A DNA stretch of 24,172 nt from a virus. Location: positions 1 through 24,172 of the IMG/VR virus record IMGVR_UViG_3300018428_003605; one strand, 5' to 3'. Shown here piece by piece: positions 8,490 to 22,485 of the stretch. Below the pieces are notes generated by a model, which was given only the letters and a program-made list of their open reading frames with translations, ran no database searches and was not told the DNA's origin. Within the stretch, counting starts at the first letter, position 1. Each line of letters opens with the position of its first letter. The translations under genes were made by a program, and so were the position numbers.

Positions 8490-9144
8490 TATACTTAACA
8501 TTGATTATATATGGAGAATTAATGATTTAGATGTATATTATACCAATGATACTAACGGAGGAGGTGATTATTTTTTACCAGAGTATGCTAGTATTGTAAA
8601 AGAATGGTATGGACAAGTAGATAACATGCTAGAATGGTGTAGTGGGCCTGGTTTTATAGGTTATGGAATGCTTGCTACAGGTTTGTGTAAAAATATTTCT
8701 TTTTCTGAAATATTTAGACCAGCTATTAGTATGTTAAACAAAACTGCTATAGAAAATAACCTTTCTGTAGATATTTTTACTAATGATAGTCTAGATAATA
8801 TAGATAAACAATTCGATTTGGTGGTTGGAAATCCTCCTCACTGGGGGAGTGTTGCAGATGCCAAACACTCCTTGCAAAAATTTGGTAATTATGCACCAAT
8901 GAACGACAGATTGTTACAAGTATTAGTTGATGATGGTTGGAAAACTCATTTAAGTTTTTTTCAAAATATGAAAAAACTGCTAAAAAAAGATGGAAAAATA
9001 CTTTTACAAGAAAATAATACAGGTTCAAATCCTGAATTATTTTCACAATTAATCAAAGATACAGGACTAAAAATTCTTAGCACAGCACAAAGCGTAGAAT
9101 ATAAACCATTAAACATTTATTATTTAGAAGTAGGTCATGCATGA
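8479..9144 (+). CDS. Class I SAM-dependent methyltransferase with NPPH motif
   Basis: I place the start at the ATG at 8479, because GAGGA lies ten bases upstream; a longer reading from 8449 would add ten mostly hydrophobic residues and overlap the epimerase more. The 221-residue protein has a SAM-binding loop LEWCSGPGFIGYGML (residues 51-65), an acidic motif II residue in FSEIFRP, and LVVGNPPHWG (Asn118-His121). NPP[YFWH] motifs occur in enzymes that methylate amide or amino nitrogens, such as PrmC on glutamine or DNA adenine methyltransferases. No DNA recognition domain is visible, so a protein or small-molecule substrate is more likely. It lies between the heptose and oxygenase genes. The target is unknown. 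Confidence 0.85.
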   Translation: MDYDILNIDYIWRINDLDVYYTNDTNGGGDYFLPEYASIVKEWYGQVDNMLEWCSGPGFIGYGMLATGLCKNISFSEIFRPAISMLNKTAIENNLSVDIFTNDSLDNIDKQFDLVVGNPPHWGSVADAKHSLQKFGNYAPMNDRLLQVLVDDGWKTHLSFFQNMKKLLKKDGKILLQENNTGSNPELFSQLIKDTGLKILSTAQSVEYKPLNIYYLEVGHA

Positions 9145-9704
9145 GTATAGATGTAATAGATAATTGTATACCGCAGTTCTATCAAGACATGTTTGAATCT
9201 TTAGCCCTTGGTCGTACAGGAGGCAATGAAATCGAAAATAGTTTGCCTTGGCGTATAAAATATGAACAAACTGCTAAAAATAATGGAGTGTGTCCTATTA
9301 GTTTCAAACATATTTTAAAAAGTGATGCTGAACTATCTAACCATTTAGCTGATTTTGCAAAGATACCTCAAATTATTACTGCAAATCTTAATTATACATT
9401 GGCTGACTTAATGTATGCAAGAGTATTTCTCACTTTACCTTATAAAACAGAACTAAAATACCATTCGCCTCACACAGATTTGAACTATCCTCACACTAGT
9501 TTAATATATTATGTAAACGATAGTGACGGTGACACTGTATTTTTTGAACCAGATATGAAAACAATTTTCCGGAAAGTTTCTCCTAAAAAAGGAAGGTGTG
9601 TATTATTCAATGGTTTAATACCTCACGGTGCTGGAATTCCGTCAAAAGGAGCCAGATGTATTGTAAATTACAATATACAGATAGGAATGAAAAATGAGTT
9701 TTGA
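9141..9704 (+). CDS. 2OG-Fe(II) oxygenase-like protein, canonical HxD
   Basis: This 187-residue protein has the double-stranded beta-helix signature: YHSPHTDLNYPHTSLIYYV supplies His111 and Asp113, GLIPHGAG supplies the distal His162, and ARCIVNYNI supplies Arg172, which would hold the 2-oxoglutarate carboxylate. The family uses O2 and 2-oxoglutarate to hydroxylate proteins, nucleic acids or small molecules. It resembles prolyl-hydroxylase-type phage oxygenases. The gene starts in an ATGA overlap with the methyltransferase and overlaps the next oxygenase by 11 bases. All four key residues are present, so activity is plausible; the substrate is not known. Confidence 0.85.
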   Translation: MSIDVIDNCIPQFYQDMFESLALGRTGGNEIENSLPWRIKYEQTAKNNGVCPISFKHILKSDAELSNHLADFAKIPQIITANLNYTLADLMYARVFLTLPYKTELKYHSPHTDLNYPHTSLIYYVNDSDGDTVFFEPDMKTIFRKVSPKKGRCVLFNGLIPHGAGIPSKGARCIVNYNIQIGMKNEF

Positions 9705-10329
9705 AGATAATGTTATGGAAGTGCCATTCTTTTCTCAAGAAGAATGCCAAGAAATAAAGGAATGGGCATTTGATTTTGAGAAAAAATTAATACAATCAGG
9801 ATTCGAAGATTACAAACCAGCACCAGAATTTTTTGATAATGTAACTACTTCTAACTATCATCATTATAATTTCTTTCATTTTTTCCCACATCATGCAGAA
9901 AGACTTGTAGACTGTCTTTATCATGTAAACAAAGATTTAGAATGGCCTATTATATGTCAGGCTTGGGTGAACATTTATAGAAAAGGACAGGGTATAAATT
10001 GGCATAACCATCAAGGAAGAATGGGCAAAAGTTTTAGTTGCAATGTTTTCATTGACGGTGACACAAAACCAGGTGTTACTTATAAACCATTTAACAGTAA
10101 GGGCATAACAAGAGAAAACAAAATAGGATTTATGCATATATTTCCTTGTGAACTTTTTCATTATGTGCAGCCAAGCGAATCAGATACTCCAAGAATTACT
10201 CTAGGAATGACTGTTCACAGCAATTCGGATATAAATATTAACATTATTAATCAATTAGCTTTTAATAGTAAGCAATATCAAGATTCGATAATACTAACTA
10301 AGGAACATTATGAGCAATCCTCATCCTAA
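9694..10329 (+). CDS. 2OG-Fe(II) oxygenase-like protein, HxH variant
   Basis: The 211-residue protein shows QAWVNIYRKGQGINWHNHQG, then SFSCNVFIDG, a distal His in ELFHYVQPSE (His156) and Arg167 in TPRITLGM. This layout fits the phage 2OG-FeII_Oxy_5/TIGR02466-type group. The first iron ligand pair is His104-x-His106 instead of His-x-Asp, so the metal site would be three histidines if His106 is a ligand. The N-terminal 80 residues are helical and rich in aromatic and histidine residues (NYHHYNFFHFFPHH). GGAA precedes the ATG. It overlaps both neighbours in the plus-strand unit. Family assignment is good; catalysis is uncertain. Confidence 0.78.
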   Translation: MSFEDNVMEVPFFSQEECQEIKEWAFDFEKKLIQSGFEDYKPAPEFFDNVTTSNYHHYNFFHFFPHHAERLVDCLYHVNKDLEWPIICQAWVNIYRKGQGINWHNHQGRMGKSFSCNVFIDGDTKPGVTYKPFNSKGITRENKIGFMHIFPCELFHYVQPSESDTPRITLGMTVHSNSDININIINQLAFNSKQYQDSIILTKEHYEQSSS

Positions 10330-10651
10330 AGTTCGTTGTAGCCATATATTATTAAGCCACGAAGATGCAATAGAATCTTCACACAGTAGGCAGCTATATT
10401 TTGCTGTATGGGATGCCAAGCAAATTATAGGTGAATTAATTCGTGGCGGTATAACTTGGGGTACGGCTGTAAAGGAACACAGTGCTTGTCCGCACAGTTG
10501 GTATCGTGATGGTGATTTAGGATGGTTTGATATAAATGATGGAGTTGTACCGGAGCTCTATTATAGTGTGCTTGCAGCACCCAAAGACCAATTACTAGAA
10601 GAGCCGATACAAACTCCATATGGAATACATATTATTGTAAGAACTGGTTAG
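10310..10651 (+). CDS. Parvulin-type peptidyl-prolyl cis-trans isomerase
   Basis: This compact 113-residue protein matches a stand-alone parvulin domain. Visible are KVRCSHILLS (His12), KEHSACPHSW (Cys60), DGDLGWF, the VVPE segment and QTPYGIHIIV (His107). These correspond to the conserved His, Cys and His of E. coli PpiC and Pin1. The reaction is cis-trans isomerisation of peptide bonds before proline. There is no signal peptide, so it acts in the cytoplasm. It closes the plus-strand unit, after two oxygenases, and AAGGAA lies before its ATG. A folding or maturation role for proline-containing virion proteins is a reasonable inference. It overlaps the oppositely oriented next gene by 4 bases. 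Confidence 0.9.
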   Translation: MSNPHPKVRCSHILLSHEDAIESSHSRQLYFAVWDAKQIIGELIRGGITWGTAVKEHSACPHSWYRDGDLGWFDINDGVVPELYYSVLAAPKDQLLEEPIQTPYGIHIIVRTG

Positions 10652-10977: not shown

Positions 10978-10986
10978 TAATATCTC

Positions 10987-11544
10987 CTATAATTCTTCTG
11001 CAAAATCTTGCAAAGAGTTAAAAACATAAGTTCTATTTTTTATGTTTTTATATATGTATTTATCCAAATCCTTCTCAGTTTCAAGACCGTGGCCTGTTCT
11101 AACTAGTACAGGTCTAGCTCCTACTTTTTTTGCGGCTTTTAAATCTGTTAATTTATCACCAACATAAAAGCTATTTTTCCATCTCAAACCTGGGATATCT
11201 TTTTGACACATTTTAAACATACCTGTATTTGGTTTTGCATATATGTCTTTTTTACTACTAGTTTCGCTATAGTATATCCCATCAATGCTTTCACAACCAG
11301 CTTGACCTAACAACCAAAGCATATGTTCGTGAATTGCGTTAACATCTTCAGCAGTCATTAATCCTTTGGCAATGCCACCTTGATTTGTTATAATAACAAT
11401 GCCATAACCTTTGTGTCTTAGATTAGCAATAGCTTCTAAACTACCAGGTATAGGTTCAAAGTCTCTCGGATGTGTACAGTAATCTCCAAGATCAGTATTA
11501 ATTACGCCGTCCCTATCTAGCCCTATAAAGACTTTACTCGTCAT
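10987..11544 (-). CDS. gmhB: HAD-family phosphatase, D-glycero-D-manno-heptose 1,7-bisphosphate 7-phosphatase-like
   Basis: The 185-residue protein carries the GmhB-type HAD motif FIGLDRDGVIN (nucleophile Asp10, general acid Asp12), motif II in IVIITNQGGIAKG, a lysine in IYAKPNTGMF and motif IV in FYVGDKLTDLKAAK. GmhB removes the 7-phosphate between the HldE kinase and adenylyltransferase steps, exactly the reaction missing from the plus-strand unit. E. coli GmhB has a cysteine-rich zinc loop before the KPxxGM motif; here that loop is shortened to ETSSKKDIY and has no cysteine. Such loop-less forms belong to the same HAD subfamily, and histidinol-phosphate phosphatase is the main alternative, but the neighbours favour heptose. 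It overlaps the upstream oxygenase by 11 bases. Confidence 0.85.
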   Translation of the reverse strand: MTSKVFIGLDRDGVINTDLGDYCTHPRDFEPIPGSLEAIANLRHKGYGIVIITNQGGIAKGLMTAEDVNAIHEHMLWLLGQAGCESIDGIYYSETSSKKDIYAKPNTGMFKMCQKDIPGLRWKNSFYVGDKLTDLKAAKKVGARPVLVRTGHGLETEKDLDKYIYKNIKNRTYVFNSLQDFAEEL

Positions 11545-12127
11545 ATGTATACCATCCTGTGATGATGTACTTTAGTCCTTTGTAAATAGGGTTGCCTCTA
11601 TGCGGATGCGTAAAGGCTGTAGGAAAAATTACTAATTTGCCTTCTTCAGGAGCAATGCGTTTACCTTGATATAAGAATTCTGTCTCACCTCCTTCTTCCA
11701 CATTATTAAGATATACCATATAATTTACAACTCTACAGGCACTACTTTTACAGGCCGCTTCTGCATGCCAAGCATGATATCCTTGGTGTGGACTTGTGCG
11801 TTGCACATTCATTCCTTTTGCACTATGTTGTTTGCTATGCTGAAGTATGCTATATTTTTGCATGTATTCATTAGTATATATTTCTTTGAGCCTTTCATAA
11901 AAATAATCACAAATCTTGTAATCATAGTGATATACGCCTTGTGTATGAGCCCAATCAAATACTATACGGTCATCAGTAACAAATCCATGCCCTTGTCTAT
12001 TAGCATTAATAACTCGATTGTCGTCTAGTGTTTCAAAATGCCTGATTACTTCTTGGCAAAAATCTTTATCAAAAGCATTAGGATATTCTTCTATTCCTGA
12101 ATAATCTTCGTATGTTTTCTCTACCAT
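11534..12127 (-). CDS. 2OG-Fe(II) oxygenase-like protein, HxE
   Basis: In this 197-residue protein YHAWHAEAA provides His121 and Glu123, and FPTAFTHPHRGNP provides the distal His174. The cosubstrate position reads KGLKYIITGWY, with Lys186 where most relatives have Arg. The strand MVYLNNVEEGGETEF is characteristic of prolyl-4-hydroxylase-like members (YLN..EEGGET). The acidic ligand is Glu instead of Asp, a known but rarer variation. A preceding region rich in His and Lys (LQHSKQHSAKG) is unusual. It starts near the end of the SGNH gene with a 7-base overlap. This is the clearest P4H-like member of the cluster; the target residue is unknown. Confidence 0.85.
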   Translation of the reverse strand: MVEKTYEDYSGIEEYPNAFDKDFCQEVIRHFETLDDNRVINANRQGHGFVTDDRIVFDWAHTQGVYHYDYKICDYFYERLKEIYTNEYMQKYSILQHSKQHSAKGMNVQRTSPHQGYHAWHAEAACKSSACRVVNYMVYLNNVEEGGETEFLYQGKRIAPEEGKLVIFPTAFTHPHRGNPIYKGLKYIITGWYTYDE

Positions 12128-12924
12128 GCTTTCTCCTTTACATATGGTATATATCTCTTTGCAATAGCATCATGCACATCTGTTGAATAATGTTCTCCAT
12201 CTACTGTATCTATTTTTATATATTTTTTTAAATAATTTTCAGCATCTTTAGGTGCGATCTTAGCATCTAGTTTTGTATAATAATCTTTAGTTTCTTTTGG
12301 TATATAACATCTATCATTAATATTCCATATATACATATTTGCATTATTTTTTGAACATAAATTGTCGCACATAGTCATATATGTGAAATAGTCTTCCTGT
12401 TCAAGATTAGTGTTACTATAATGCCACATTTGCATATACAAATGAGAAGATCTTCTAATATCGGGTTCTGTTTTCCAAACTTGTGTGTCTCGTATATAAG
12501 GAAAATGATCGTAATCGCTTACATCTGGTTTTAAATATGTTTCTAAATATTTGTTGTTAGGTGAAAGTGCAATACTATATCTGTCTATTGTATCTGTAGA
12601 AAAGTTTTCATCTATAAAAAAGTCTAACGGAAATATTTTCTTTGCATCTAAGTCAGGATTTATTGCAATAGGAAATCTACCCCAGTATGTGCTTTGAACA
12701 AAAACTTCTGTTATATCTTTGTATTTTTTAAAGGCATATGATAAAAATCTAGGAAATGCTCTATTTCCTGCTCCTGCACTTGCCATAATTACAACTTGCT
12801 GACCAGTATTTTTACTGTATATTTCTGCATAATTATTATCACGCCATACGTTAGGCTCGTTGGGCGGCGCATCTTCTCTATAACCCATTGTATGACTACA
12901 ACCTACAAATAATGTTCTACCCAT
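12121..12924 (-). CDS. SGNH/GDSL hydrolase-like protein
   Basis: I choose the ATG at 12924, because GAGG lies six bases upstream and it gives the typical start MGRTLFVGCSHTMG; an in-frame ATG at 12942 would only lengthen the overlap with the previous gene. The 267-residue protein has the N-terminal FVGCSHT in place of GDS, with Ser10 as candidate nucleophile, SAGAGNRAF as candidate Gly/Asn block, and a C-terminal DGEHYSTDVHDAIAKRY with histidines placed as in block V. Such enzymes are esterases, often removing or adding acyl groups on glycans. GCS instead of GDS makes activity uncertain. A second SGNH-like protein lies at 15716-16411. Confidence 0.65.
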   Translation of the reverse strand: MGRTLFVGCSHTMGYREDAPPNEPNVWRDNNYAEIYSKNTGQQVVIMASAGAGNRAFPRFLSYAFKKYKDITEVFVQSTYWGRFPIAINPDLDAKKIFPLDFFIDENFSTDTIDRYSIALSPNNKYLETYLKPDVSDYDHFPYIRDTQVWKTEPDIRRSSHLYMQMWHYSNTNLEQEDYFTYMTMCDNLCSKNNANMYIWNINDRCYIPKETKDYYTKLDAKIAPKDAENYLKKYIKIDTVDGEHYSTDVHDAIAKRYIPYVKEKAW

Positions 12925-13468
12925 ATGTTGCCTCAAAGTCAAAAACCATTACTCTGCGCTCATCAATAGTAGGATACGCTCCGTGCCAAATACGTGCATC
13001 CATAATTAACAACAATCCTTTTTTAGGTTGCCACCAATTCACATGTGTTTCGCCTTTTTCATCTTGTAATACTGCGTAGAAGGCCCCTTCATCGTTAGGC
13101 TGATCTTCAATATCGTCAAAGTATAGAACTGCTGTACAACCTGTACGACCTTTAGTATGATTGTGCATACCTTTCCAGCCGCCTGGAAAATAACGGATAC
13201 TCCAAGTTTGTATATGATCGTGTATTGTACACGGCACGTCACCTTCTGCTAGTATTGTGTTAGTTTTATCAATTATAAAATCAGCAACACCCTTTGTTTC
13301 TTCTAAGGTGTGTGGTATTTGATAACCGTTAACAGTTGTACTTCTACCAGGCTCTACAAGGTTAGGATGGTCGCTATCAAATAAATGTTCATAGTCTTTC
13401 CACATAGGAACATGTGTTTCTACTATCCACTGATTATTTGCAATGTAAAGTGTATCATTCATTTGCAT
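12917..13468 (-). CDS. 2OG-Fe(II) oxygenase-like protein, HxH variant
   Basis: The 183-residue protein has SIRYFPGGWKGMHNHTKGR with His102-x-His104, then CTAVLYFDDI, the distal His162 in ARIWHGAYP and Arg171/Arg172 in DERRVMVFDFEA. The fold order fits the oxygenase-like group, and the iron motif again has His in place of Asp. MQM at the start offers two ATG codons (13468 and 13462); neither has a strong Shine-Dalgarno sequence, so translation may depend on coupling to the overlapping upstream gene. A conserved Asp/Glu-rich stretch (DDIEDQPNDEGAF) separates the two halves. Substrate unknown. Confidence 0.78.
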   Translation of the reverse strand: MQMNDTLYIANNQWIVETHVPMWKDYEHLFDSDHPNLVEPGRSTTVNGYQIPHTLEETKGVADFIIDKTNTILAEGDVPCTIHDHIQTWSIRYFPGGWKGMHNHTKGRTGCTAVLYFDDIEDQPNDEGAFYAVLQDEKGETHVNWWQPKKGLLLIMDARIWHGAYPTIDERRVMVFDFEATYG

Positions 13469-14069
13469 TTGCAGGTCTTATAACAAAGTTTGCGGCAATA
13501 GTTGCACGTCTGCTGTCTGTTTTGTTAGGTAATACATAGTGTGATACCCAACTAGGAAACAATACAAGTGTGCCTTTTTGTAAAGGTGGTGTAATATGTT
13601 GGTAGTTGTAGGCATTAAAGATCCTATCCATGCCACTACTACGTATTGTTGGAAAATTAGGACATTCTAGTACCAACTGCCCGCCTACGTCTTTCTCTTG
13701 ATCTGGAAAATCTAACACATAAACTGCACTTAAACTGCGTCCTGGAAAAGCATGATCATGAGGTTCTTGATAGTCACCCTTTTTATATTTGTTAAACCAC
13801 ATCTCGTCACAGAATACACTATATGGCACTTGCGGGTCAAGTTTTTCAAGGTATTTGTTTATATGAGGCTGTACAGCATCAAACCATATTTTCCAAGGCA
13901 GTTTATCATTGTTTTCATTTCTTATACTGCTCTTTGTATTAGCCATAGTCCACAAGCTATCTGAAATATAAGATTCATCTTCAATATATGGATCCCATTC
14001 TTTTAAAATATCATCAGCTTCAGTTAGAACATTTGTATAAAAATGTGTTTCCCAAAACTTTACGTGCAT
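13455..14069 (-). CDS. 2OG-Fe(II) oxygenase-like protein, HxH variant (2OG-FeII_Oxy_5-like)
   Basis: The start at 14069 forms TAATG with the stop of the upstream gene, so I prefer it over an ATG nine bases earlier (14078). The 204-residue protein contains DEMWFNKYKKGDYQEPHDHA (His104 and His106), SLSAVYVLDFP, LVLFPSWVSHYVLPN (His177) and RRATIAANFVI. The sequence FPSW.SH.V.PN is the hallmark of the TIGR02466/2OG-FeII_Oxy_5 group. It lies in a chain of four oxygenase genes joined by overlaps. With HDH the second position is Asp but the third is His, so which residue binds iron needs a structure. Family assignment is strong. Confidence 0.83.
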   Translation of the reverse strand: MHVKFWETHFYTNVLTEADDILKEWDPYIEDESYISDSLWTMANTKSSIRNENNDKLPWKIWFDAVQPHINKYLEKLDPQVPYSVFCDEMWFNKYKKGDYQEPHDHAFPGRSLSAVYVLDFPDQEKDVGGQLVLECPNFPTIRSSGMDRIFNAYNYQHITPPLQKGTLVLFPSWVSHYVLPNKTDSRRATIAANFVIRPANANE

Positions 14070-14572
14070 TACACCCATCCATTCTGTTCAGCATTAAAGA
14101 AAAATACTTGTGTTAGTCTGCCCGTTTTAGGAGAATCACCAAATCCTGCAAGTAGGCTTGCATGATCCATATTTCCATCATACAGCACAAGTCTATTATA
14201 AACATTACCAATAACATTTACAAGATCGTAACCTCCATCTTTTTCTAAATATAAACCTGTTCCTGATTCTGTAGGTGCATCTGGATTAAGGTATAAAACA
14301 CCTGCCCAATCACATCCGTCTTTGTGTATCCAAGTTTCAGCACCTTCGTAACATAGTTGAAAGCAAAAACTGTCCATAACAAATTCAGTTATACTTACAT
14401 TTAATATTTCTTGGAACCTATGATGGATAAACATCTGATAATCATCATCACATGCAAGACTACGCATACCAGGAAATTCTCCTGTAGTAGGATAATCTAA
14501 CTGGATTGCTTGTTCTCTAACAAGATCAGGTGCAGGTAAAAAGTTGTCTATAACTATTGATGTTTTCTTCAT
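14069..14572 (-). CDS. 2OG-Fe(II) oxygenase-like protein, HxD (DUF6445-like)
   Basis: This 167-residue protein begins with VIDNFLPAPDLVREQAIQLD, a typical start of small phage oxygenases. ETWIHKDGCDWAGVLYLNPD gives His83 and Asp85; RLVLYDGNMDHAS gives the distal His137; and GRLTQVFFFN gives Arg152. The core YLNPDAPTESGTGLY and the MDHAS...GFGD segment match the DUF6445-type family as I remember it. All canonical residues are present. The gene's ATG overlaps the stop of the upstream gene in TAATG, and its own stop does the same with the next one. Confidence 0.83.
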   Translation of the reverse strand: MKKTSIVIDNFLPAPDLVREQAIQLDYPTTGEFPGMRSLACDDDYQMFIHHRFQEILNVSITEFVMDSFCFQLCYEGAETWIHKDGCDWAGVLYLNPDAPTESGTGLYLEKDGGYDLVNVIGNVYNRLVLYDGNMDHASLLAGFGDSPKTGRLTQVFFFNAEQNGWV

Positions 14573-15090
14573 TACATAAAATCCATATAAATATTGCCAC
14601 TTATAGTAGTGCCTGTATTTCCAGGCATTACAAAGTGTTCTATAAAACTAGGAAAGATAACTATATCTCCTTGCTTACATTCTGGTCGAAAATCTAAAGG
14701 AAATTCTGGAACACTACTACCAAACTGATTTTGAACATCTTTAAATAACGGACTCATAAAAACAGTTTTGCCAGTTTCAACTGACTCATAGATTACAAAA
14801 CTCCAACTACTACGTGGATGTATGTGTATGTCTTGCCAGTCATTCTTTTCATATTTGTTGCGCCATATTTCTCCAAATCTTGGATTTTGACCAATTAGAT
14901 CTGGACCTAAGTTGCGTCCAAATACTTCTATTAGGTATTCGTATGTGGTTTCAGATATTTCGTGTTGTTGTCCTAGTGTGCTGTTAGTTTTACTTAGCCA
15001 AATCTTTTCATAAGGGGCTTCGCCTATGTCAATACGATCTAAGTCAACTTGATCGATAAAAAACGGAACATGGAATAGATTATGCTTCAA
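14572..15090 (-). CDS. 2OG-Fe(II) oxygenase-like protein, HxH variant without cosubstrate arginine
   Basis: The 172-residue protein shares EIWRNKYEKNDWQDIHIHPR and IVIFPSFIEHFVMPGN with the 2OG-FeII_Oxy_5 group, giving His89, His91 and His152. Where relatives carry Arg about ten residues after the distal His, this protein reads TGTTISGNIYM, without a basic residue. It therefore may not bind 2-oxoglutarate in the usual way and could be an inactive or altered member. It starts four bases inside the upstream oxygenase gene (ATGA-type overlap) and ends in TAATG with the next. Relation to the family is clear; catalytic competence is doubtful. Confidence 0.78.
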   Translation of the reverse strand: MKHNLFHVPFFIDQVDLDRIDIGEAPYEKIWLSKTNSTLGQQHEISETTYEYLIEVFGRNLGPDLIGQNPRFGEIWRNKYEKNDWQDIHIHPRSSWSFVIYESVETGKTVFMSPLFKDVQNQFGSSVPEFPLDFRPECKQGDIVIFPSFIEHFVMPGNTGTTISGNIYMDFM

Positions 15091-15722
15091 CCAAATCTCC
15101 TTGCTGGCAAAGGCACACTGCGCATAGTCTTATATACTAGTGTTGCACGTAGTCCTTTGTATTTTTCGTTAGGTGGTAACCCATGATGTGGAATATTACC
15201 TTTGAACAAGAAAATACGTCCTGGCTTTGGATATACTTTCTTCCATTCGCCGTCAAGTTTAATAATTGTTTCTCCGCCCCATTCTTCTTTCCACTCTCTG
15301 TTTACATAATAGATCCAACTTAATCCATTGTCACACTGACAGTCTGTGTGTTCTGTAGTGTTGTGTATAAACTGCTGGCCGTTAACAAGGATTTCACCTA
15401 TATCTAACTCAAATGGTATAAGACTAGTAACAGCATCATATATCATATTCCAGCAACTATCATGTGCATTGTTACTATGTGGCGGATATATCTGTTGTTT
15501 GAATGCAGGAACTTCAGGCCAATCTGGATCTGCTCCTACGTCATACAACGGATCTTCGTGGTAGTTACTAGTATGACCATATGTCCAATTATATCCGTTA
15601 AATACAGTTTTATGAACGTGATCAATAACATATTGTGGGAACATATCATCAATCACAATCATTTGATCTTTTGCTAGATCAAATTCAGATAAGTCTTTTG
15701 CTTCTTTGTCGTTAATCAACAT
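15087..15722 (-). CDS. 2OG-Fe(II) oxygenase-like protein, canonical HxD
   Basis: A 211-residue protein whose core reads QQFIHNTTEHTDCQC (His125, Asp127), LSWIYYVNREW, EEWGGETII, PGRIFLFKGNIPHHGLPP (distal His179 or His180) and LRATLVYKT (Arg192). WGGET with the following strand is a prolyl-hydroxylase-like hallmark. The N-terminus (MIVIDDMFPQYVIDHVHKTV) matches other phage oxygenases. It is the most canonical member of the minus-strand group and the first in transcription order among four consecutive oxygenases. It overlaps the SGNH gene by 7 bases. Substrate not known. Confidence 0.86.
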   Translation of the reverse strand: MLINDKEAKDLSEFDLAKDQMIVIDDMFPQYVIDHVHKTVFNGYNWTYGHTSNYHEDPLYDVGADPDWPEVPAFKQQIYPPHSNNAHDSCWNMIYDAVTSLIPFELDIGEILVNGQQFIHNTTEHTDCQCDNGLSWIYYVNREWKEEWGGETIIKLDGEWKKVYPKPGRIFLFKGNIPHHGLPPNEKYKGLRATLVYKTMRSVPLPARRFG

Positions 15723-16411
15723 TTAATAAATTCCTTTTTAAAACTATCTGAAAGATTAAGTTCTTTACTTTCTGTAGATAGACATTGGTATAATTTGTTT
15801 GCAAAAATCTTATGGTTTTCTTTACTCATATGATTTTGCCTCGGATCTACTCCGTAATGTTTGTACCATTTTTTCCTTTCGATGTCATTAATAAATTCTA
15901 AGTTTGCTATGTCTGACATTGTTCCGTTCACTTCGGGACATGGTTCAAAACCTGGTATTATTTTCCACTGATTACTAGCTGTAATGTTTAGTATTGTATA
16001 TAATCCATAAAAACATTGTTGATATAAAATACTGTCAGACTGCGGGTGATGTAAGCAACTCATGTATTCTTTTACTGCTTGTTTTGTTTTTTTATTAATT
16101 ACGTCATTAAATTGACTATCTAAGATATTATGGTAATTTCCATATGTTGGATCGTTTTCTAAAAACCATCTCCTACTCGGATCTGTTAGTTGTACTAGAA
16201 CATAATCAGTTTCATGAATTTTTTGTGCATCATCAACAACAGTTTTAAATATGTATTCATTTGCATATCCATAACCAGAGCGGTATTCTATAGTATCACA
16301 ACCTAGCAACTTAGCCAATTGTACCGACCATATAGAAAAATTATTTTCTAAAGGAGGCAATTCTTCATTATACGGAGCTGAAAAACTGTCTCCAAAAATC
16401 CATAGCTTCAT
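15716..16411 (-). CDS. SGNH/GDSL hydrolase-like protein
   Basis: The 231-residue protein begins MKLWIFGDSFSAPY, with GDS at residues 7-9 as the nucleophile block. EYRSGYGYANEYIF may be the Gly/Asn block, VLVQLTDPSRRW follows a hydrophobic strand, and DPRQNHMSKENHKIFANKLY near the C-terminus carries the expected Asp/His pair. Such proteins are esterases or acyl-group transferases acting on carbohydrates. The start shares a base with the carbamoyltransferase stop (TAATG), placing it among the sugar-modifying genes. It differs from the protein at 12121-12924 in having an intact GDS. The specific substrate is unknown. Confidence 0.75.
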   Translation of the reverse strand: MKLWIFGDSFSAPYNEELPPLENNFSIWSVQLAKLLGCDTIEYRSGYGYANEYIFKTVVDDAQKIHETDYVLVQLTDPSRRWFLENDPTYGNYHNILDSQFNDVINKKTKQAVKEYMSCLHHPQSDSILYQQCFYGLYTILNITASNQWKIIPGFEPCPEVNGTMSDIANLEFINDIERKKWYKHYGVDPRQNHMSKENHKIFANKLYQCLSTESKELNLSDSFKKEFIKC

Positions 16412-18216
16412 TAATTAGAAACCTTTGCTAACAGGCCGTGTTCTGCGATGTACAAGTATTCAATTTCACTACTTGCAAGTGTTCTAAATGCATCGTCAAG
16501 TGTTTCTACCAAAGGCTCGCCACCTAAGTTGAAACTTGTATTAAATATAATTGGTACGCCTGTTTTTTCATAATATTCTTTAATGTACTTATAGTATAGT
16601 GGGTTTTGACTTTCTGTTACTGTTTGTATACGGCAAGTTCCATCTACATGAATAATGCTTGGAATCTTTTCTTCAACACCTTCTTGACAGTTAACAGCAT
16701 ACATCATGTGCGGTGTTTCGTCCAGGCCGCGCAAATCAAACCATTCATGTACGTGTTCAGCAAGTATTGTACCAGCAAATGGACGGAAGTATTCACGGCG
16801 CTTGATACGGTTTACCCAGTCTTTACCGTCCTTAAATGTAGGATCGAACATAAGGCTTCTATTTCCTAATGCACGTGGTCCTGATTCAGAACGTCCTTGG
16901 AACATAGCAACAATGTTTTTGTCACACATAATATCTACTACTTCTTTATCTGTAGCTTCTACAAGTGTTGCATTGTATTTTTCTGCTGTTGCTTCAACAT
17001 CTTGTTTTGAATAATCATACTTAGGACCCAAGTAAAGACTTTCACCATATGGCATTACTTCTTCACTGTTTGTAAGTTGATGATATGCAAAGTATGCTGC
17101 ACCAATCGCTGTACCTGCATCACTACTAATAGGTTCAACATACAGTTTGATGCCATGTTTGTTTAATTCTGTAAGATAAAAATAGTTTGCTACACAATTT
17201 AGTCCATAACCACCCGACAACACAACATTTTTGTTTCCAGTCCTCTCTACTGCATCTAATATAAGATTTAAAACTTGTTGCTGTGTCTGTGTTTGCACAG
17301 CATATGCAAGATCTCTTCTGTTTTCAAGTTTTGTAACATCATCTTTTTGATAATCAAAGTTTTCTGGAGTGCGTAAAAACTTATATCTACCTTCATTGAT
17401 CCTTGAACTATTAGGATAAGTTGGAATAGTTACATGTCTATTTGCACAAGTCCATTCACCTTCATCTGTAAATAAAGGAGGAATAGCATCATTAGGCTTA
17501 CCATATGGAAATAAGCCCATAGTCTTACCCGCTTCAATTGCTTGGAAGCCACAATAATTTGTAACTGCTTCGTATACTTTCGTTATACCTGCACCGTCAC
17601 TGATAATACATTCATGTGTACCGGATTCATCATATCTTTCGCTACTCATATCCGGTACCCAAGCATTCCTAAACGGACCATTGCCACCTAAATGTTTGTA
17701 TAAAGTTTTGATTTCAAATGGGTATTTACAATCAAATATTGTTTCTAATTCAAACACCATATGATTTTCGCCTTCTTCTAAACTTAGCGGAATAAAAGTG
17801 CCTGCGCCGTCAACAATAACTGCTGTAGCAGTTTCAAATCCACTTCGATAGAATGCACAAGCCGCATGTAATTTGTGATGCATATGTGATAAGTCTACAA
17901 CTTGTGGATGTTTGTAAATGTCAACATTTGTTTGTTGATCAATAAGTCCTAGCTTACGTGCTAGACCTGTGTATACATCATCACCTGTAAAATCAACTCT
18001 TGCCGCTGTTTCATTTAGTGGCTGAGTATGTGCTATCACCAAGTAGTCAAGTTTATCAGTGTATTTTAGTATCTTCACCATAGAAGCAAAAGGACCACCA
18101 TCATATTTGTGTCTTGACAATCTTTCTTCTTCTATTGCAAAAACTATTTCGCCATCTTTAAGCAAACATACACCGCCATTATGTCCGCGTGTAATAGCTG
18201 CTATCCATTTAGTCAT
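16411..18216 (-). CDS. O-carbamoyltransferase, NodU/CmcH family
   Basis: The 601-residue length is normal for the family. The N-terminal domain starts with RGHNGGVCLLKDGEIVFAIE and EERLSRHK, then HHKLHAACAFYRSGF (residues 113-127), the metal-site motif HHxxHA, and VIVDGAGT. The C-terminal domain has LSGGYGLNCVAN, SSDAGTAIGAA, GRSESGPRALGNRS and VPIIFNTSFN, all highly typical. Enzymes of this family move a carbamoyl group from carbamoyl phosphate, through an adenylate, to a hydroxyl of a sugar or antibiotic. It follows the GT9 gene by two bases and precedes the SGNH gene, so the target is probably a sugar made or transferred here. Carbamoyltransferase genes occur in several cyanomyoviruses. 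No sign of truncation. Confidence 0.95.
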   Translation of the reverse strand: MTKWIAAITRGHNGGVCLLKDGEIVFAIEEERLSRHKYDGGPFASMVKILKYTDKLDYLVIAHTQPLNETAARVDFTGDDVYTGLARKLGLIDQQTNVDIYKHPQVVDLSHMHHKLHAACAFYRSGFETATAVIVDGAGTFIPLSLEEGENHMVFELETIFDCKYPFEIKTLYKHLGGNGPFRNAWVPDMSSERYDESGTHECIISDGAGITKVYEAVTNYCGFQAIEAGKTMGLFPYGKPNDAIPPLFTDEGEWTCANRHVTIPTYPNSSRINEGRYKFLRTPENFDYQKDDVTKLENRRDLAYAVQTQTQQQVLNLILDAVERTGNKNVVLSGGYGLNCVANYFYLTELNKHGIKLYVEPISSDAGTAIGAAYFAYHQLTNSEEVMPYGESLYLGPKYDYSKQDVEATAEKYNATLVEATDKEVVDIMCDKNIVAMFQGRSESGPRALGNRSLMFDPTFKDGKDWVNRIKRREYFRPFAGTILAEHVHEWFDLRGLDETPHMMYAVNCQEGVEEKIPSIIHVDGTCRIQTVTESQNPLYYKYIKEYYEKTGVPIIFNTSFNLGGEPLVETLDDAFRTLASSEIEYLYIAEHGLLAKVSN

Positions 18217-18218: not shown

Positions 18219-19250
18219 TTATTTCTCTCCGAATCTTTTTATTGTAGTGTTTCCAGGAACTAGTTTAGGTACGGGTGTAGATTTATTTTCCTGTGTAGAT
18301 TTTTGTTTAGTTGATGGTCCAAGTTTATCCCTAACACTTTTTAAGATTTTATCTATTTGAGTTTTATCTAGCTCCATTACTTCATCATTCATTCTATCTT
18401 GTTCTTCTTCTATAGTAAGTCTAATTGGGGCATAAATTCTTTTGCCATCTCCTACATCTATAATATCAAAGTTTTTATCTTCAGGATAGGATATGTTTAC
18501 AGGATATGTAGACCCTGTAACAATAGTTGCTGTTTTTCCTAGAGCTTTTACAATGTGTTGACCTAAACTATCACAACCTAAAAAGTAATCTGCTACTTCT
18601 ATTATTCCTGCCCATATCCTCATATCCGGAATTTCTGGTTGTGCTACTGGGTATTGTGTATTAGGTGTTTTATCAATTGACACAGGATGTTCACTCATAA
18701 TAATAACACCGTATTCTTTTCTTAATTGATCAATTATATCAATAATGTTATTAAGTTGAAAACTTCTCGATGTTGTATCTATTAGGAAACTTCCTATATT
18801 TTCAATTGTTCTACCAAAAGGCTGTACAACTAAAACTTTATCAAAACCTGTGACTTGTTTAACTTCTTCTACAACATTTGCTGCACTTACAATTTCTTGT
18901 TTATTTAAAATTAAAGTAGGTCTATCTAAGTGTCTTACACCTTTGTTGTTAATTTCAATATCAAATGCTTGTGATAAACTGCATTTTTGATTGTAATATT
19001 CCCATACACGATAAGGTTCAGGACTTACACAATTACGGTCTTTAATATAAGTTTCAAATAAACCTTTGTGCCAATGATCAAAAACTCTTTTGTATAGAGT
19101 AGGGTGTCCTTTATAAAAATCAGTTCCGCCTTCACATACAATTATAAAATTGTCGTTTGGATTTTCTTTTTCGTATAGTTCAAATGCAGGAATGCTTGCA
19201 ATAACCCTTCCTGCTCCGCCGTTAATAAAAAATGCTGTAGATCTTGCCAA
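18219..19250 (-). CDS. Glycosyltransferase family 9-like protein (heptosyltransferase-like)
   Basis: The start codon is TTG at 19250, supported by AGGAGA just upstream. The 343-residue protein has INGGAGRVIASIPAFELYE at its N-terminus (acceptor-domain glycine loop of GT9) and ADYFLGCDSLGQHIVKALGK with ATIVTGST in the C-terminal domain, equivalent to the ADP-heptose-binding D.fiG.DSG..H motif. GT9 enzymes add L-glycero-D-manno-heptose from ADP-heptose to LPS core or proteins. Two departures are clear: the usual DSG reads DSL, and residues ~312-343 form an unstructured, Lys/Ser/Thr/Pro-rich tail. With phage genes for ADP-heptose synthesis close by, heptose transfer is the best guess. It is the first gene of its unit, behind a late-promoter-like box. 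Confidence 0.75.
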   Translation of the reverse strand: MARSTAFFINGGAGRVIASIPAFELYEKENPNDNFIIVCEGGTDFYKGHPTLYKRVFDHWHKGLFETYIKDRNCVSPEPYRVWEYYNQKCSLSQAFDIEINNKGVRHLDRPTLILNKQEIVSAANVVEEVKQVTGFDKVLVVQPFGRTIENIGSFLIDTTSRSFQLNNIIDIIDQLRKEYGVIIMSEHPVSIDKTPNTQYPVAQPEIPDMRIWAGIIEVADYFLGCDSLGQHIVKALGKTATIVTGSTYPVNISYPEDKNFDIIDVGDGKRIYAPIRLTIEEEQDRMNDEVMELDKTQIDKILKSVRDKLGPSTKQKSTQENKSTPVPKLVPGNTTIKRFGEK

Positions 19251-19302
19251 AGTAATTCTCCTATTATGTTTATAATAGCATAGGTTCTAACTTATTGCAA
19301 GA

Positions 19303-19310
19303 TATTTATT
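19303..19310 (-). promoter_or_regulatory. Putative T4-type late promoter box (AATAAATA)
   Basis: AATAAATA on the minus strand, one mismatch from TATAAATA, lies 52 bases upstream of the TTG start of the GT9 gene and directly downstream of the hairpin at 19321-19351. A terminator followed by a promoter in a 99-base spacer marks the border between the tail-gene unit and the glycan/oxygenase unit. Confidence 0.5.
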
Positions 19311-19320
19311 GGGGTTGATA

Positions 19321-19351
19321 AAAGTAATGCGTCATTGTGGCGCATTACTTT
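19321..19351 (-). terminator. Rho-independent terminator hairpin
   Basis: A perfect 11-bp inverted repeat (AAAGTAATGCG / CGCATTACTTT) with a 9-base loop. On the minus strand it is followed by a T run (CTTTTATC). Its upstream arm overlaps the TAA stop of the tail-chaperone-like gene at 19350. The GC content of the stem is modest, so the hairpin is weaker than bacterial ones but strong for such AT-rich DNA. Confidence 0.7.
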
Positions 19352-20063
19352 ACATTGTTATTAGATCGCCGGTGTCTGGTTCTTCTTCACTTGCAGGATC
19401 AATCGGCGTCATATTGTAAGCTGCCCAAGCAGGAATTCCTGCATTCTCCATTACAGTTGGCCAGTCGCGTAGTGCTTGTCTATAATTTTGCCACTTTGTC
19501 TTAAGAGCTGCTGGCATATCTTCAACAATTTCACTGTCACTATTTTTAAGTAACTGCATACGCTTTGCACGTACATCAGGCCAATCTGGAAGTCTATCAC
19601 CTCCGCCCATAACCGCTTGTGGTAATGTTACTGCATCAACAGTTATATTGTCATTTGCGTCAACTCTAATACTATCATGTTGATACACGTCTCGTACTTG
19701 TAAAGGTGTTTGATAATTAAATACAGTGTGTCCGGGTATTTCTCTTACACCGGGTGGAAATGCTGCACCTGTGTAATCTTCTTCCTCTTCGTCAATCACA
19801 GGACCAATTAGCTGACAAATCAAAGGATTGCTTATGCAATCTACTTCAACATATCTACAACCTAGTCCAACTGGACGACCATCATCCTTTTCCAACTGAG
19901 TGATAGGTCCGCTTTCTTGCATTCCTGTCTCATTGTTAATAATCATATATAATTTATCAGGTCCGTCATATACTTTTTGACAAGTATTGCCATCAGTAAA
20001 AGTATGATCGACCATAAATTCATTTGGTAAGTTCATTGTCCAAGTAAATTCTACCATAGCCAT
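19350..20063 (-). CDS. Phage tail assembly chaperone-like protein
   Basis: The 237-residue protein ends with a region typical of phage tail-fibre or tail assembly chaperones: LLKNSDSEIVEDMPA, then KWQNYRQALRDWP, where the YRQALRD pattern is a hallmark (pfam Phage_tail_APC type). The N-terminal ~150 residues are less clear; they contain LYMIINNETGMQESGP and an acidic run of Glu and Asp at residues 91-96, and end in a Gly-rich patch. An AGGAGATATACA Shine-Dalgarno region, similar to that of T7 gene 10, precedes the ATG, suggesting strong translation. It lies downstream of the three Cys-rich genes and may help fold or place them. Chaperone role is inferred from the C-terminal motif. Confidence 0.7.
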   Translation of the reverse strand: MAMVEFTWTMNLPNEFMVDHTFTDGNTCQKVYDGPDKLYMIINNETGMQESGPITQLEKDDGRPVGLGCRYVEVDCISNPLICQLIGPVIDEEEEDYTGAAFPPGVREIPGHTVFNYQTPLQVRDVYQHDSIRVDANDNITVDAVTLPQAVMGGGDRLPDWPDVRAKRMQLLKNSDSEIVEDMPAALKTKWQNYRQALRDWPTVMENAGIPAWAAYNMTPIDPASEEEPDTGDLITM

Positions 20064-20084
20064 AATTGTATATCTCCTTCTGAG

Positions 20085-20092
20085 TATTTATG
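20085..20092 (-). promoter_or_regulatory. Putative T4-type late promoter box (CATAAATA)
   Basis: CATAAATA on the minus strand in the 36-base gap between the first Cys-rich gene and the chaperone-like gene, 21 bases before its ATG. It fits NATAAATA, like the boxes at 6127, 6172, 19303 and 23646, and could give this gene its own late transcript. Confidence 0.5.
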
Positions 20093-20099
20093 ATTCATT

Positions 20100-20909
20100 T
20101 TAGAAAAAAGTCACTTTAACGACTCCACCGCCGCCAGTGCCTCCCTGTCCGCAACATCTGCCACAATAGTTTGAGGTCGCGCTTTGTCCGCCTGCACCAT
20201 AGTCTGCAATCCAGCAACCACAACGTATCCAGCAGTAGTTTGAATTCTGTTCATAGTAATTATCACTTAGGTTAGGTGCTCCTGTTGAATGTCCGTGGTG
20301 TTTCCAGCAGTGACATGCACTACCTGGATACATGTACGGTGATTGTGCTTGGAAGTTACCACCGTGTGTGTAACTTGCCCAGTCGCCACTTGAACTTGTT
20401 CCATGACAACCTGGTCTTACACAGTAAGGCATAGTTGAGTAACAGTGATCAGTCCAAGAGCCGTTAGTACAGCCTCTTTGCCCACCACATGCACAACTAT
20501 TAATATTATAGCCACAAACATAAGAGCTACAACCGTTGCAACCGTTACATTCTCTACTTAAACAACGATATACTCCACCTGCGCACACCCTATATGTACA
20601 GCCAGCATTTGTATCAATGCTTTTACTAGTGTATGCTCCACCGCCTGGTGGAGCTGTGTGTTGACATCTGTTACATGAACACGCACCTGCACCATTGCCA
20701 CCGGCGCCCCACATTTCCCAGTTTGCTCTGCGAACATTACTAGGCACAGTCCATAAACAACAGCATCCTGCAGAACAACGACAACTTATTCCGTAAAACC
20801 ATTTTACACAAAAAGTTTCTCTTACTCCGCTTGCTAAGTTGTCGTAATCAAATGTGCTGTTAGGAATTTGATCTGCAACTACTTTTTTGTAACTATCATA
20901 TGATGCCAT
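20100..20909 (-). CDS. Cysteine/glycine-rich virion structural protein, paralogue 1
   Basis: A 269-residue protein with 30 cysteines (11%) and very high glycine. It begins MASYDSYKKV, like its two neighbours. Conserved blocks in order are WFYGISCRCSAGCCCLWTVP, WGAGGNGAGACSCNRC, GVYRCLSRECNGCNGC, YCWIRCGCW and YCGRCCGQGGTGGGG. The WGAGGNG...GGG framework is that of glycine-rich phage fibre-tip domains, with cysteines inserted at fixed places. The C-terminal VVKVTFF closes a beta strand. There is no membrane segment. Similar proteins occur in marine T4-like phages as I recall, usually annotated as structural or hypothetical. AGGAG precedes the ATG. Dense disulfides or metal binding are both possible. 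This copy has an extra cysteine/histidine-rich section (ACHCWKHHGHS). Confidence 0.82.
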   Translation of the reverse strand: MASYDSYKKVVADQIPNSTFDYDNLASGVRETFCVKWFYGISCRCSAGCCCLWTVPSNVRRANWEMWGAGGNGAGACSCNRCQHTAPPGGGAYTSKSIDTNAGCTYRVCAGGVYRCLSRECNGCNGCSSYVCGYNINSCACGGQRGCTNGSWTDHCYSTMPYCVRPGCHGTSSSGDWASYTHGGNFQAQSPYMYPGSACHCWKHHGHSTGAPNLSDNYYEQNSNYCWIRCGCWIADYGAGGQSATSNYCGRCCGQGGTGGGGVVKVTFF

Positions 20910-20917
20910 TATAACTC

Positions 20918-21697
20918 CTAAATATATGTAACCCTAACAAGTCCGCCACCACCTGTGCCACCTTGACCGCAACATCTGCCACAGTAAGTATTCATAGCAC
21001 TTTGACCTCCTGTTCCGTAAGGCACACTCCAACAACCACAGCGAATCCAACACTGTCTTATACCTTGATGTGAGTTGCCTGCAATCTTAGGTGCCATACC
21101 TTGATGTATTTCTTGTGGGTGACAATGACAATATCCTGATGCTGTACTAAATGCTTGTGTGGCTCCGCCCACTGCAAAATCACCACCTGTTGTAGTTGGT
21201 TCAAGACATAAGTGTCTTGTATAGAAACATCCTGTTGACCAACTTGTATTTGATTCTGCTCTGTGTCCGCCACATGCACAGAAGTCACTTAGATTGTAAC
21301 CATTTACATAACTTTTACAACCATAACAACCTGTACATTCACGTGATAAACATCTGTAAACACCTGAAGCGCAAACTGTATAACTGCATCCTGGCGTTGT
21401 TCCAATTGTTTTAGCTGAATAGGTTCCGCCTCCTGCAGCTCTAAAGTGGTGACATCTATTACATGAACAAGCACCTGCACCATTGCCGCCTGATGCCCAT
21501 AGTTCCCAGTGCAATCTCTTTACTTGGCTTGGTACTGACCAGTTACAACAGCATCCTGCAGAACATCTACAAGGAATACCATAAAACCACTTAACACCAA
21601 AGTTGTTAAGTGTGTTGCTGTTAATCATATCGTCAGTAATTATACCATCGGAAATTTGTGATCCATTTACTTTTTTATAACTTGCGTAATTAGCCAT
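20918..21697 (-). CDS. Cysteine/glycine-rich virion structural protein, paralogue 2
   Basis: A 259-residue tandem relative of the proteins on both sides, with 26 cysteines. It keeps YGIPCRCSAGCCCNWSVP, GGNGAGACSCNRCHH, GVYRCLSRECTGCYGC, NGYNLSDFCACGG, CWIRCGCW and YCGRCCGQGGTGGGG. The variable stretch around residues 150-205 differs completely from the other copies apart from CHCH, so it is the likely exposed, specificity-bearing surface. The N-terminal 35 residues (ASYKKVNGSQISDGIITDDM) are a fibre-like head for attachment. AAGGA precedes the ATG by about ten bases. Only eight bases separate it from copy 1. Confidence 0.82.
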   Translation of the reverse strand: MANYASYKKVNGSQISDGIITDDMINSNTLNNFGVKWFYGIPCRCSAGCCCNWSVPSQVKRLHWELWASGGNGAGACSCNRCHHFRAAGGGTYSAKTIGTTPGCSYTVCASGVYRCLSRECTGCYGCKSYVNGYNLSDFCACGGHRAESNTSWSTGCFYTRHLCLEPTTTGGDFAVGGATQAFSTASGYCHCHPQEIHQGMAPKIAGNSHQGIRQCWIRCGCWSVPYGTGGQSAMNTYCGRCCGQGGTGGGGLVRVTYI

Positions 21698-21708
21698 CTA
21701 ATTTTTCC

Positions 21709-22485
21709 TTATGCAAATGTAATTTTAACAACACCTGGTCCTCCAGTACCGCCTTGTCCACAGCATCTACCACAGTATGAGGTCATACCATTTTGCCCAC
21801 CGTGTGCAGGTGGTGCAATCCAGCAACCACAACGTATCCAACAAACGTTAATAGCCTGTGACACATTGCCGCCTAAGAATGGTGCGTTTGTAGGTCGTAC
21901 ATATTGTGAATGGCAGTGACAATTAAATATTCCAGAGAACATACCAGCATGACTGCCCATACCAAAGTCTCCGTTGTTATCATTTGGTCCTAAACAACAG
22001 GTCCAACAACTCATACAATAGTGTGTCCAGTCTGTATTACCTCTGCCGCAACCGCCGCCGATTGCGCAGAAATCACTTAGATTGTAGCCATTTACATATG
22101 TTGTACATCCTCTACAACCTGTACATTCACGTGATAAACATCTGTAAACACCAGCAGCACACATTGTATAACTGCATCCTGGTGTAGTACTGATCATTTT
22201 TGAATTGTAGTATCCACCGCCAGCACCTTGATAATGGTGACATCTGTTACATGAACACGCACCACTTCCATTACCACCTGCACCCCATAGTTCAAAGAAC
22301 ACACGTCTTACGTGGCTTGGTACTGACCAGTTACAACAGCATCCTGCAGAACAACGGCAAGCATCACCAATTAGCCATTTTGTACACAGCCTGTGACGAG
22401 TGTCTGTACCCAGCTTTGTTTGGGTAACAGTGCCGTCGATGACCATTTCGTTGCTAATTTTTTTGTAACTTGAATATGTAGCCAT
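21709..22485 (-). CDS. Cysteine/glycine-rich virion structural protein, paralogue 3
   Basis: I set the start at the ATG at 22485 because it gives MATYSSYKKI, aligned with the starts of the two other copies, and has AGAGGA upstream; a longer frame from 22524 adds 13 unrelated residues and runs into the next gene. The 258-residue protein has 29 cysteines and the same blocks: DACRCSAGCCCNWSVP, WGAGGNGSGACSCNRC, GVYRCLSRECTGCRGC, NGYNLSDFCAIGG, CWIRCGCW and YCGRCCGQGGTG. Its central variable part has MSCWTCCLGP and FNCHCHSQ. It is the first transcribed of the three copies. Confidence 0.82.
   Translation of the reverse strand: MATYSSYKKISNEMVIDGTVTQTKLGTDTRHRLCTKWLIGDACRCSAGCCCNWSVPSHVRRVFFELWGAGGNGSGACSCNRCHHYQGAGGGYYNSKMISTTPGCSYTMCAAGVYRCLSRECTGCRGCTTYVNGYNLSDFCAIGGGCGRGNTDWTHYCMSCWTCCLGPNDNNGDFGMGSHAGMFSGIFNCHCHSQYVRPTNAPFLGGNVSQAINVCWIRCGCWIAPPAHGGQNGMTSYCGRCCGQGGTGGPGVVKITFA

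Follow-up and report, generated by a model that had tools for sequence, protein, structure and literature searches.

The window analyzed here is a 24,172-nucleotide fragment (IMG/VR record IMGVR_UViG_3300018428_003605, positions 1 to 24,172) that, judging from protein comparisons, is a piece of a T4-like cyanophage (Kyanoviridae) genome; megablast of the window gave no near match among deposited phages. It encodes a glycosyltransferase (GT; g25) of putative heptosyltransferase type next to three cysteine-rich predicted fiber-tip paralogues (g27 to g29), along with a carbamoyltransferase and genes for ADP-heptose synthesis. We computed the gene content of this locus, a near-obligate pairing of the GT with Cys-rich proteins, the folds of the GT and tip proteins, the coupling to ADP-heptose genes, and the dispensability of the oxygenases encoded nearby. 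The genes at the center of the analysis are as follows.

22503..24171, minus strand: fiber genes g30 to g32 (PHROG tail/fiber matches), kept directly upstream of the Cys-rich genes (g32-g31-g30-Cys x3)
21709..22524, minus strand: predicted Cys-rich fiber-tip paralogue g29, 29 Cys (PHROG 4205); homology suggests that it starts at the ATG at 22485
20918..21697, minus strand: predicted Cys-rich fiber-tip paralogue g28, 26 Cys in 259 aa (AlphaFold2 model versus Pam3 fiber 7ypx)
20100..20909, minus strand: predicted Cys-rich fiber-tip paralogue g27, 30 Cys in 269 aa (PHROG 4205; Cys count; model of paralogue g28)
19350..20063, minus strand: tail-fiber assembly chaperone g26 with a Phage_tail_APC C terminus (PF16778, E 1.6e-9), kept between the Cys-rich genes and the GT
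18219..19250, minus strand: putative GT9-like heptosyltransferase g25 (PHROG 8954; GT9/WaaF/TibC/WaaC fold; PF01075 in Schitovirus homologues)
16411..18216, minus strand: NodU/TobZ-type O-carbamoyltransferase g24 (PF16861, E 1e-56; PF02543, E 4e-27)

By protein comparison, the same gene order is present in S-SSM7, Sf-FS3, S-CAM3, S-CAM1, and P-SSM2: fiber genes, two or three Cys-rich genes, a tail-chaperone-like gene, the GT (annotated as a “hypothetical protein”), a NodU-type carbamoyltransferase, and then an Hld part consisting of HldE-C, HldE-N, a HAD phosphatase, a cupin, and HldD. The cassette entered the databases with P-SSM2, filed under “LPS genes” (lipopolysaccharide genes) of unknown purpose. 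The accessible text of Sullivan et al. 2010 (PMC3037559) lists part of it in this way and leaves undecided whether the genes are functional or “stuffer DNA.” The “LPS gene cluster” T4-GC 302-308 of P-SSM2 and S-SSM7 in that text corresponds to this cassette and is given no link to a Cys-rich tip.

The proteins encoded by g27 to g29 are 10.0 to 11.2% Cys, compared with 0 to 2.6% for all other proteins of the window. The AlphaFold2 model of g28, which has a predicted local distance difference test score (pLDDT) of 81.5, aligns with the Pam3 fiber (7ypx) over 184 residues (Z 17.1; root mean square deviation 2.6), and g28 is predicted to fold like this cyanophage fiber, with a TNF-like domain plus a glycine-rich tip. 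A profile search of the PDB with the Cys-rich alignment gave no match, and the relation to Pam3 comes from the model; g26 likewise returned nothing useful from the PDB. A chaperone-type gene adjoins the fiber gene in both phages (gp25 next to gp24 in the myocyanophage Pam3; PMC9608196). However, the window has three position-conserved paralogues of about 10% Cys, whereas the Pam3 paper makes no mention of cysteine. Among the paralogues, the nearest relative of less than 75% identity holds the same position in 271 of 306 cases, with about one third expected by chance; this points to a tip built as a heteromer, perhaps a heterotrimer. From the neighboring fiber genes, the Cys-rich proteins are putative components of the virion.

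The pairing of the GT with Cys-rich proteins extends well beyond the window. IMG/VR was scanned with g25 and with the Cys-rich family, each scan covering the best 80 matches. Among the 80 GT loci, 65 have at least 3 kb of upstream sequence, and in 65/65 of these a protein of at least 5% Cys (usually about 10%) is encoded within 5 kb upstream. Conversely, the GT lies downstream of the Cys-rich gene in 63/63 loci with enough downstream sequence. The initial annotation had proposed a co-occurrence analysis of these families, and its outcome is thus strong. With phmmer, partners were recognized at 55 of the 65 GT loci, and the 10 diverged partners are proteins of 287 aa with 37 to 43 Cys. Homology alone undercounted the pairing because the Cys-rich protein of the L030 type gave no match in phages by tblastn. 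Since both scans kept the best 80 matches, the GT scan was repeated from a divergent branch, where 58 of 65 loci have a neighbor of at least 5% Cys within 5 kb. Of the 103 such Cys-rich genes, 92 are found in the 6 kb preceding the GT, compared with 1 of 84 genes in GT-free comparison loci, and the partners reach 1397 aa and 148 Cys. Across regions of 45 to 48 kb from four isolates, a 121-aa endonuclease VII is the only further protein to reach 5% Cys at a length of 120 aa or more. GT relatives at L268, L273, L280, L282, L283, L286, and L293 are without such a neighbor; those at L268, L280, L282, and L286 are also without the carbamoyltransferase and may have another acceptor.

Because many of these loci belong to related phages, they do not represent independent events. 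The independent support for the pairing is the diversity of the partners, of which 404 distinct ones were sorted into 37 clusters (E<1e-8). The number of clusters is an approximation, as compositional bias can distort BLAST either way. Simple inheritance of synteny was rejected as an explanation, as the partners are nonhomologous. The pairing and its reach beyond the cyanophages are new as far as we searched, although the gene cluster itself is known.

A natural control is provided by the Schitoviridae of Vibrio, in which a short GT homologue that passes the Pfam GT9 cutoff is inserted just before the tail-tip gene. The tail protein beside the GT has 41 Cys in SBP1, 41 in D505, and 39 in K479, whereas the homologous tail proteins of GT-less relatives have 4 (PG11), 7 (1.261.O), and 4 (VBP47). 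Restricting the comparison to aligned residues leaves the contrast in place (21 versus 2, 27 versus 7, and 15 versus 1). The two closest GT-bearing tail proteins have 27 Cys in common, while 9 and 11 differ singly, mostly to Ala. Aeromonas phage HJ05 has 23 Cys in the product of the gene upstream of its GT and few in all other products of the region. In the Schitoviridae loci that were read, the GT is accompanied by a Cys-rich tail protein, and neither a carbamoyltransferase nor an oxygenase is annotated. When IMG/VR was scanned with the Schitovirus-type GT, SBP1 itself was the only match.

In partners of at least 450 aa, compared with other structural genes upstream of the GT, Cys is 27.6-fold enriched, whereas the ratios for Ser and Thr are 0.92 and 0.64. 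The number of Cys per partner has no even bias (67 odd, 68 even), which speaks against a fixed set of intramolecular disulfides. Taken together with the single Cys gained or lost between close homologues, this parity fits attachment sites better than a fixed disulfide set.

The initial annotation had assigned g25 to GT9. There is no direct match of g25 to PF01075, but the assignment is supported by homologues and by fold. Schitovirus homologues joined to g25 by alignment pass PF01075 at 24.5 and 25.4 bits (cutoff, 22), while the archaeal and Aeromonas phage homologues fall below the threshold. The model of g25 (pLDDT 87.2) has a GT-B fold and matches the GT9 structure 3tov (Z 23.1), WaaF (1psw; 20.4), TibC (4rb4; 19.9), and WaaC (2h1h; 18.9), and the next family after these GT9/TibC-type structures is at Z 11.7. 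Most likely, g25 has the fold of a GT9-type heptosyltransferase, with a putative use of ADP-heptose. The LPS heptosyltransferases WaaC and WaaF share with it the fold (Z 18.9 to 20.4) and a D..H motif in the C lobe. However, they have a GD(V/L) motif in the N lobe where the phage GT has an invariant GGxGR, and their genes are found in LPS clusters rather than in tail operons.

Another known parallel is TibC, a protein heptosyltransferase that modifies Ser residues of adhesins (PMC4358343). TibC/AAH enzymes (BAHT) have the same GT-B heptosyltransferase-type fold, with 267 residues of TibC aligned to g25; they use ADP-heptose, the donor proposed for the phage GT, and a hyper-modified surface adhesin is encoded next door. 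TibC differs in being a dodecamer with an iron finger, an N-terminal barrel, and Ser as its target (PMC4358343), whereas the partners of the phage GT are rich in Cys and not in Ser. Residue 1 of the g25 model aligns to residue 92 of TibC, and the N-terminal beta-barrel domain is missing. The four-Cys iron finger is also missing, as g25 has 4 Cys in total and no conserved set of four across the homologue alignments. Because it is without this domain and finger, the phage GT would work like the BAHT family yet stand outside it. The SunS/glycocin S-glycosyltransferases of bacteriocins are GT2 enzymes with a GT-A fold that modify one or two Cys in small peptides. An S-glycosidic link to Cys would be common to both systems, but g25 is GT-B and GT9-like, and its partners have 25 to 148 Cys per protein. 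The carbamoyltransferase follows the GT in 70 of 72 loci; in g24, as in the archaeal homologue, both Carbam_trans_N and Carbam_trans_C score above the cutoff.

The pairing is also found in one archaeal case. In one metagenome-assembled genome (MAG) of a Woesearchaeota member, the interval between Cbf5 and enolase encodes a 52-Cys protein with a signal-like N terminus, the GT, the carbamoyltransferase, and a GmhB-like protein. Another contig of the same bin has GmhA, HldD, HldE kinase, GmhB, and HldE-C in a row, although binning errors are possible, above all for this second contig. Among 371 Woesearchaeota genomes searched, there is one full-length member of the GT family (E 4.5e-99). The other matches were rejected as members, being partial C-lobe alignments (E >= 7e-17) that look like generic GT9. 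To our knowledge, Archaea are without LPS.

The proposed donor sugar can be largely accounted for by genes in the window, with NCBIfam scores that lie below the equivalog cutoffs.

6210..6977, plus strand: cupin plus heptose-1-phosphate adenylyltransferase (HldE-C) fusion g07 (TIGR02199, E 3.6e-37; PHROG 7878/7851; weak cupin-isomerase matches)
6928..7680, plus strand: heptose-7-phosphate kinase (HldE-N) g08 (TIGR02198, E 5.8e-44)
7677..8489, plus strand: ADP-heptose 6-epimerase (HldD) g09 (TIGR02197, E 1.8e-72)
10987..11544, minus strand: GmhB-like heptose bisphosphate phosphatase g15 (PRK08942 [GmhB], E 1.5e-43, below the curated cutoff)

As the LPS of marine Synechococcus has no heptose (PMC4515613), the cyanophage must bring the ADP-heptose pathway itself. 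The HldE kinase is present in 13 of 15 GT-bearing cyanophage-type contigs longer than 60 kb and in every GT-bearing cyanophage isolate with a complete genome, and it is absent from all three (0/3) GT-bearing Schitoviridae-type genomes of Vibrio/Aeromonas phages, which were searched whole. Vibrio and Aeromonas make ADP-heptose for their own LPS. The cupin of g07 (6210-6569, plus strand), labeled as a cysteine dioxygenase in PHROGs, has weak matches to the cupins of lyxose isomerase and mannose-6-phosphate isomerase; it could replace GmhA, or the host may supply that step. Genes labeled “phosphoheptose isomerase” in relatives (L006:34312-34656, L003:31055-31390, and their relatives) were rejected as GmhA, as they encode a short HAD-like phosphatase (DIDGT ... 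KPHAD.FIDDK) with no SIS domain. Separately, S-T4, S-SM2, and P-TIM68 (L183, L184, and L185) have Hld genes without this GT in nucleotide-sugar islands away from the tail genes; cyanophages therefore use ADP-heptose in a second, different context.

The Hld and GT units appear to be expressed late. The motif ATAAATA is not enriched in the window overall (9 sites versus 13.3 expected), but 4 of the 9 sites fall within its 321 intergenic bases in the right orientation, before g06, g07, g25, and g26 (0.36 expected; P about 2e-4). The initial annotation held that both units open with the same late box, and this distribution bears it out for g07 and g25.

6173..6179, plus strand: ATAAATA late box before the Hld unit (g07)
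19303..19309, minus strand: ATAAATA late box before the GT unit (g25)
20085..20091, minus strand: ATAAATA late box before g26

The remaining genes of the cassette encode accessory enzymes, including eight oxygenases of the 2-oxoglutarate (2OG)-Fe(II) type (g11, g12, g16, and g18 to g22).

8449..9144, plus strand: HemK/MTS-type methyltransferase g10 (PF05175, E 6.6e-9)
9141..9704, plus strand: 2OG-Fe(II) oxygenase g11 (PF13640 above cutoff; HTD...H...R)
9694..10329, plus strand: 2OG-Fe(II) oxygenase g12 (PF13759 above cutoff)
10310..10651, plus strand: parvulin-type prolyl isomerase g13 (PF00639, E 6.5e-9)
11534..12127, minus strand: 2OG-Fe(II) oxygenase g16 (PF13640, E 2.9e-13)
12121..12942, minus strand: SGNH-like g17, motif only (GCSHT and DGEH, read by eye), in 17 of 58 related loci
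12917..13468, minus strand: 2OG-type oxygenase g18, weak (PF13759, E 7.8e-4, below cutoff)
13455..14078, minus strand: 2OG-Fe(II) oxygenase g19 (PF13759, E 3.6e-14)
14069..14572, minus strand: DUF6445 protein g20, oxygenase-like (PF20043, E 3.6e-11; HKD...H motif)
14572..15090, minus strand: 2OG-Fe(II) oxygenase g21 (PF13759, E 8.9e-9)
15087..15722, minus strand: 2OG-Fe(II) oxygenase g22 (PF13640, E 2.4e-8)
15716..16411, minus strand: SGNH-like g23, motif only (FGDSF, read by eye)

This inventory agrees with the initial annotation for the oxygenases, methyltransferase, parvulin, GmhB-like protein, carbamoyltransferase, and Cys-rich trio, which are supported by Pfam, PHROGs, and NCBIfam. The SGNH calls stand on motifs: g17 and g23 have no Pfam or PHROG match, and the label reflects GDS/GCS and D-x-x-H motifs read by eye. 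The range first drawn around the system (9141-22485) was too narrow, leaving out most of the ADP-heptose genes (6210-8489) and the methyltransferase. In the window lineage, one or more oxygenases are encoded in the 10 kb downstream of the GT at 56 of 58 loci. In contrast, only 4 of 56 GT loci of the divergent branch have one downstream (52 do not), while the carbamoyltransferase (47 loci), GmhB (44), HldD (43), and cupin (42) are kept. At 31 of 58 loci (L019, L043, L051-L086, and others), Trp-halogenase-like proteins are encoded downstream of the GT, near Cys-rich tips that are also rich in Trp, and a role in protein halogenation is possible. The oxygenases appear, together with the halogenase, methyltransferase, and SGNH proteins, to be changeable tailoring enzymes added in particular lineages. 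PHROG 274, “DNA endonuclease V” (denV), matches g11 and g22, which are 2OG-Fe(II) oxygenases in Pfam, suggesting that the denV label is a widespread misannotation in cyanophages.

Two features of the other fiber genes were also observed. The fiber proteins g04 and g06 contain cupredoxin-like H...C..H..M stretches (window positions 990-1130 and 5490-5825, both minus strand: YRYQCTSHPSMVG; YYWCTYHTGMGNEV), which look like copper-binding domains built into fibers. A subtilase gene (PF00082) lies between two fiber genes (2620-4680, minus strand), and P-SSM2 has one in the same setting.

The reading that we favor, at somewhat better than an even chance, is that g25 heptosylates the Cys-rich, Pam3-type fiber tips, probably through sulfur, and that the sugar is then carbamoylated. 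Late in infection, ADP-heptose would be made by the HldE kinase g08, the GmhB-like g15, the HldE adenylyltransferase g07, and the epimerase g09, with the first isomerase step performed by the host or by the cupin of g07. The GT would then move heptose onto the adjoining g27 to g29, most likely onto many Cys thiols (S-heptosylation), and g24 would carbamoylate it. Oxygenases, methyltransferase, and SGNH proteins, with the halogenase in relatives, may tailor the sugar or the proteins further, and the order of these steps is likewise tentative. The outcome would be a receptor-binding tip coated in modified heptose. That the Cys-rich proteins are the acceptor of the GT is likely. The linkage to sulfur, suggested by the Cys enrichment, is about an even call. 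A broader version, somewhat less probable than an even chance, is that a GT9-derived family of protein S-heptosyltransferases serves tailed phages of unrelated lineages and one or more archaea, acting on dozens to more than 100 Cys per protein, with viral adhesins rewritten to about 10% Cys as acceptors and the carbamoyltransferase finishing the sugar. The initial annotation was therefore right to propose a late modification pathway for tail proteins that brings together ADP-heptose, a GT9 enzyme, and a carbamoyltransferase. Its statement that no such system had been described holds for the function as far as searched, and no report of phage S-heptosylation or of a Cys-rich fiber was found in a literature search that was thin in subscription journals. 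It does not hold for the gene cluster, which the accessible text of PMC3037559 shows to have been known since P-SSM2.

Several observations weigh against S-heptosylation as set out above. The phage GT has an invariant Arg (R15 of the GGxGR motif) where WaaC has Asp, although the WaaC alignment is insignificant there. Seven of the 65 divergent GT loci have no neighbor of at least 5% Cys (one has 3.8%), long partners are slightly even-biased (36 even versus 23 odd, nonsignificant), and the archaeal evidence is one MAG. No phage GmhA was found: PF13580 had no match in 9 phage records and 2 virus contigs, and none is encoded in the window. Furthermore, Met, Trp, and His are also 2.4- to 4.5-fold enriched in the partners, which glycosylation does not explain. 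The Cys could then serve to bind metal or to give the surface a special chemistry, with the sugar elsewhere. A related but unlikely alternative is that the GT modifies the Cys-rich proteins at other residues and the Cys form disulfides or bind metal, stiffening an extracellular tip; the cupredoxin-like C/H/M motifs of the window's fiber proteins are in keeping with it. However, the lack of even bias in Cys number and the gain and loss of individual Cys argue for attachment sites, no other acceptor residue is comparably enriched, and Cys-richness arises in unrelated families only beside the GT.

The published view of these genes would have the cassette remodel the host surface (LPS or polysaccharide) against superinfection, with the adjacency to fiber genes reflecting coevolution with the receptor. 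The Hld genes that occur without this GT in the large islands of S-T4, S-SM2, and P-TIM68 fit such a role, as does the listing of the genes as LPS clusters of unknown function in the accessible text of Sullivan et al. (PMC3037559). We regard it as improbable, since marine Synechococcus LPS is without heptose (PMC4515613), the GT goes together with Cys-rich proteins from unrelated families, the Vibrio phages carry it inside the tail operon without HldE, and an archaeon without LPS has the same pair. Less probable still is the model of the initial annotation, in which the oxygenases hydroxylate fiber residues and heptose is O-linked to the new hydroxyls. The near-constant presence of oxygenases in the window lineage speaks for it. 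However, their scarcity in the divergent loci means that hydroxylation cannot be a general prerequisite, none is annotated in the Schitoviridae loci that were read, and in the partners Ser is not enriched and Thr is depleted. A collagen-like logic is thus unlikely as the core of the system, as it is Cys that tracks the GT.

Under heptosylation of the tip by g25, the cyanophage “LPS genes,” which have lacked an explanation ever since the first genomes, would gain a concrete job in decorating the receptor-binding tip of the virion, and the two-gene Schitovirus version would be a minimal system. If the link is to sulfur, this would be heavy enzymatic glycosylation of cysteine in a viral adhesin, relevant to host range, to the stability of the virion, and to the use of Calvin cycle sugars of the host (sedoheptulose phosphate), and it would add a route of protein glycosylation common to viruses and archaea.

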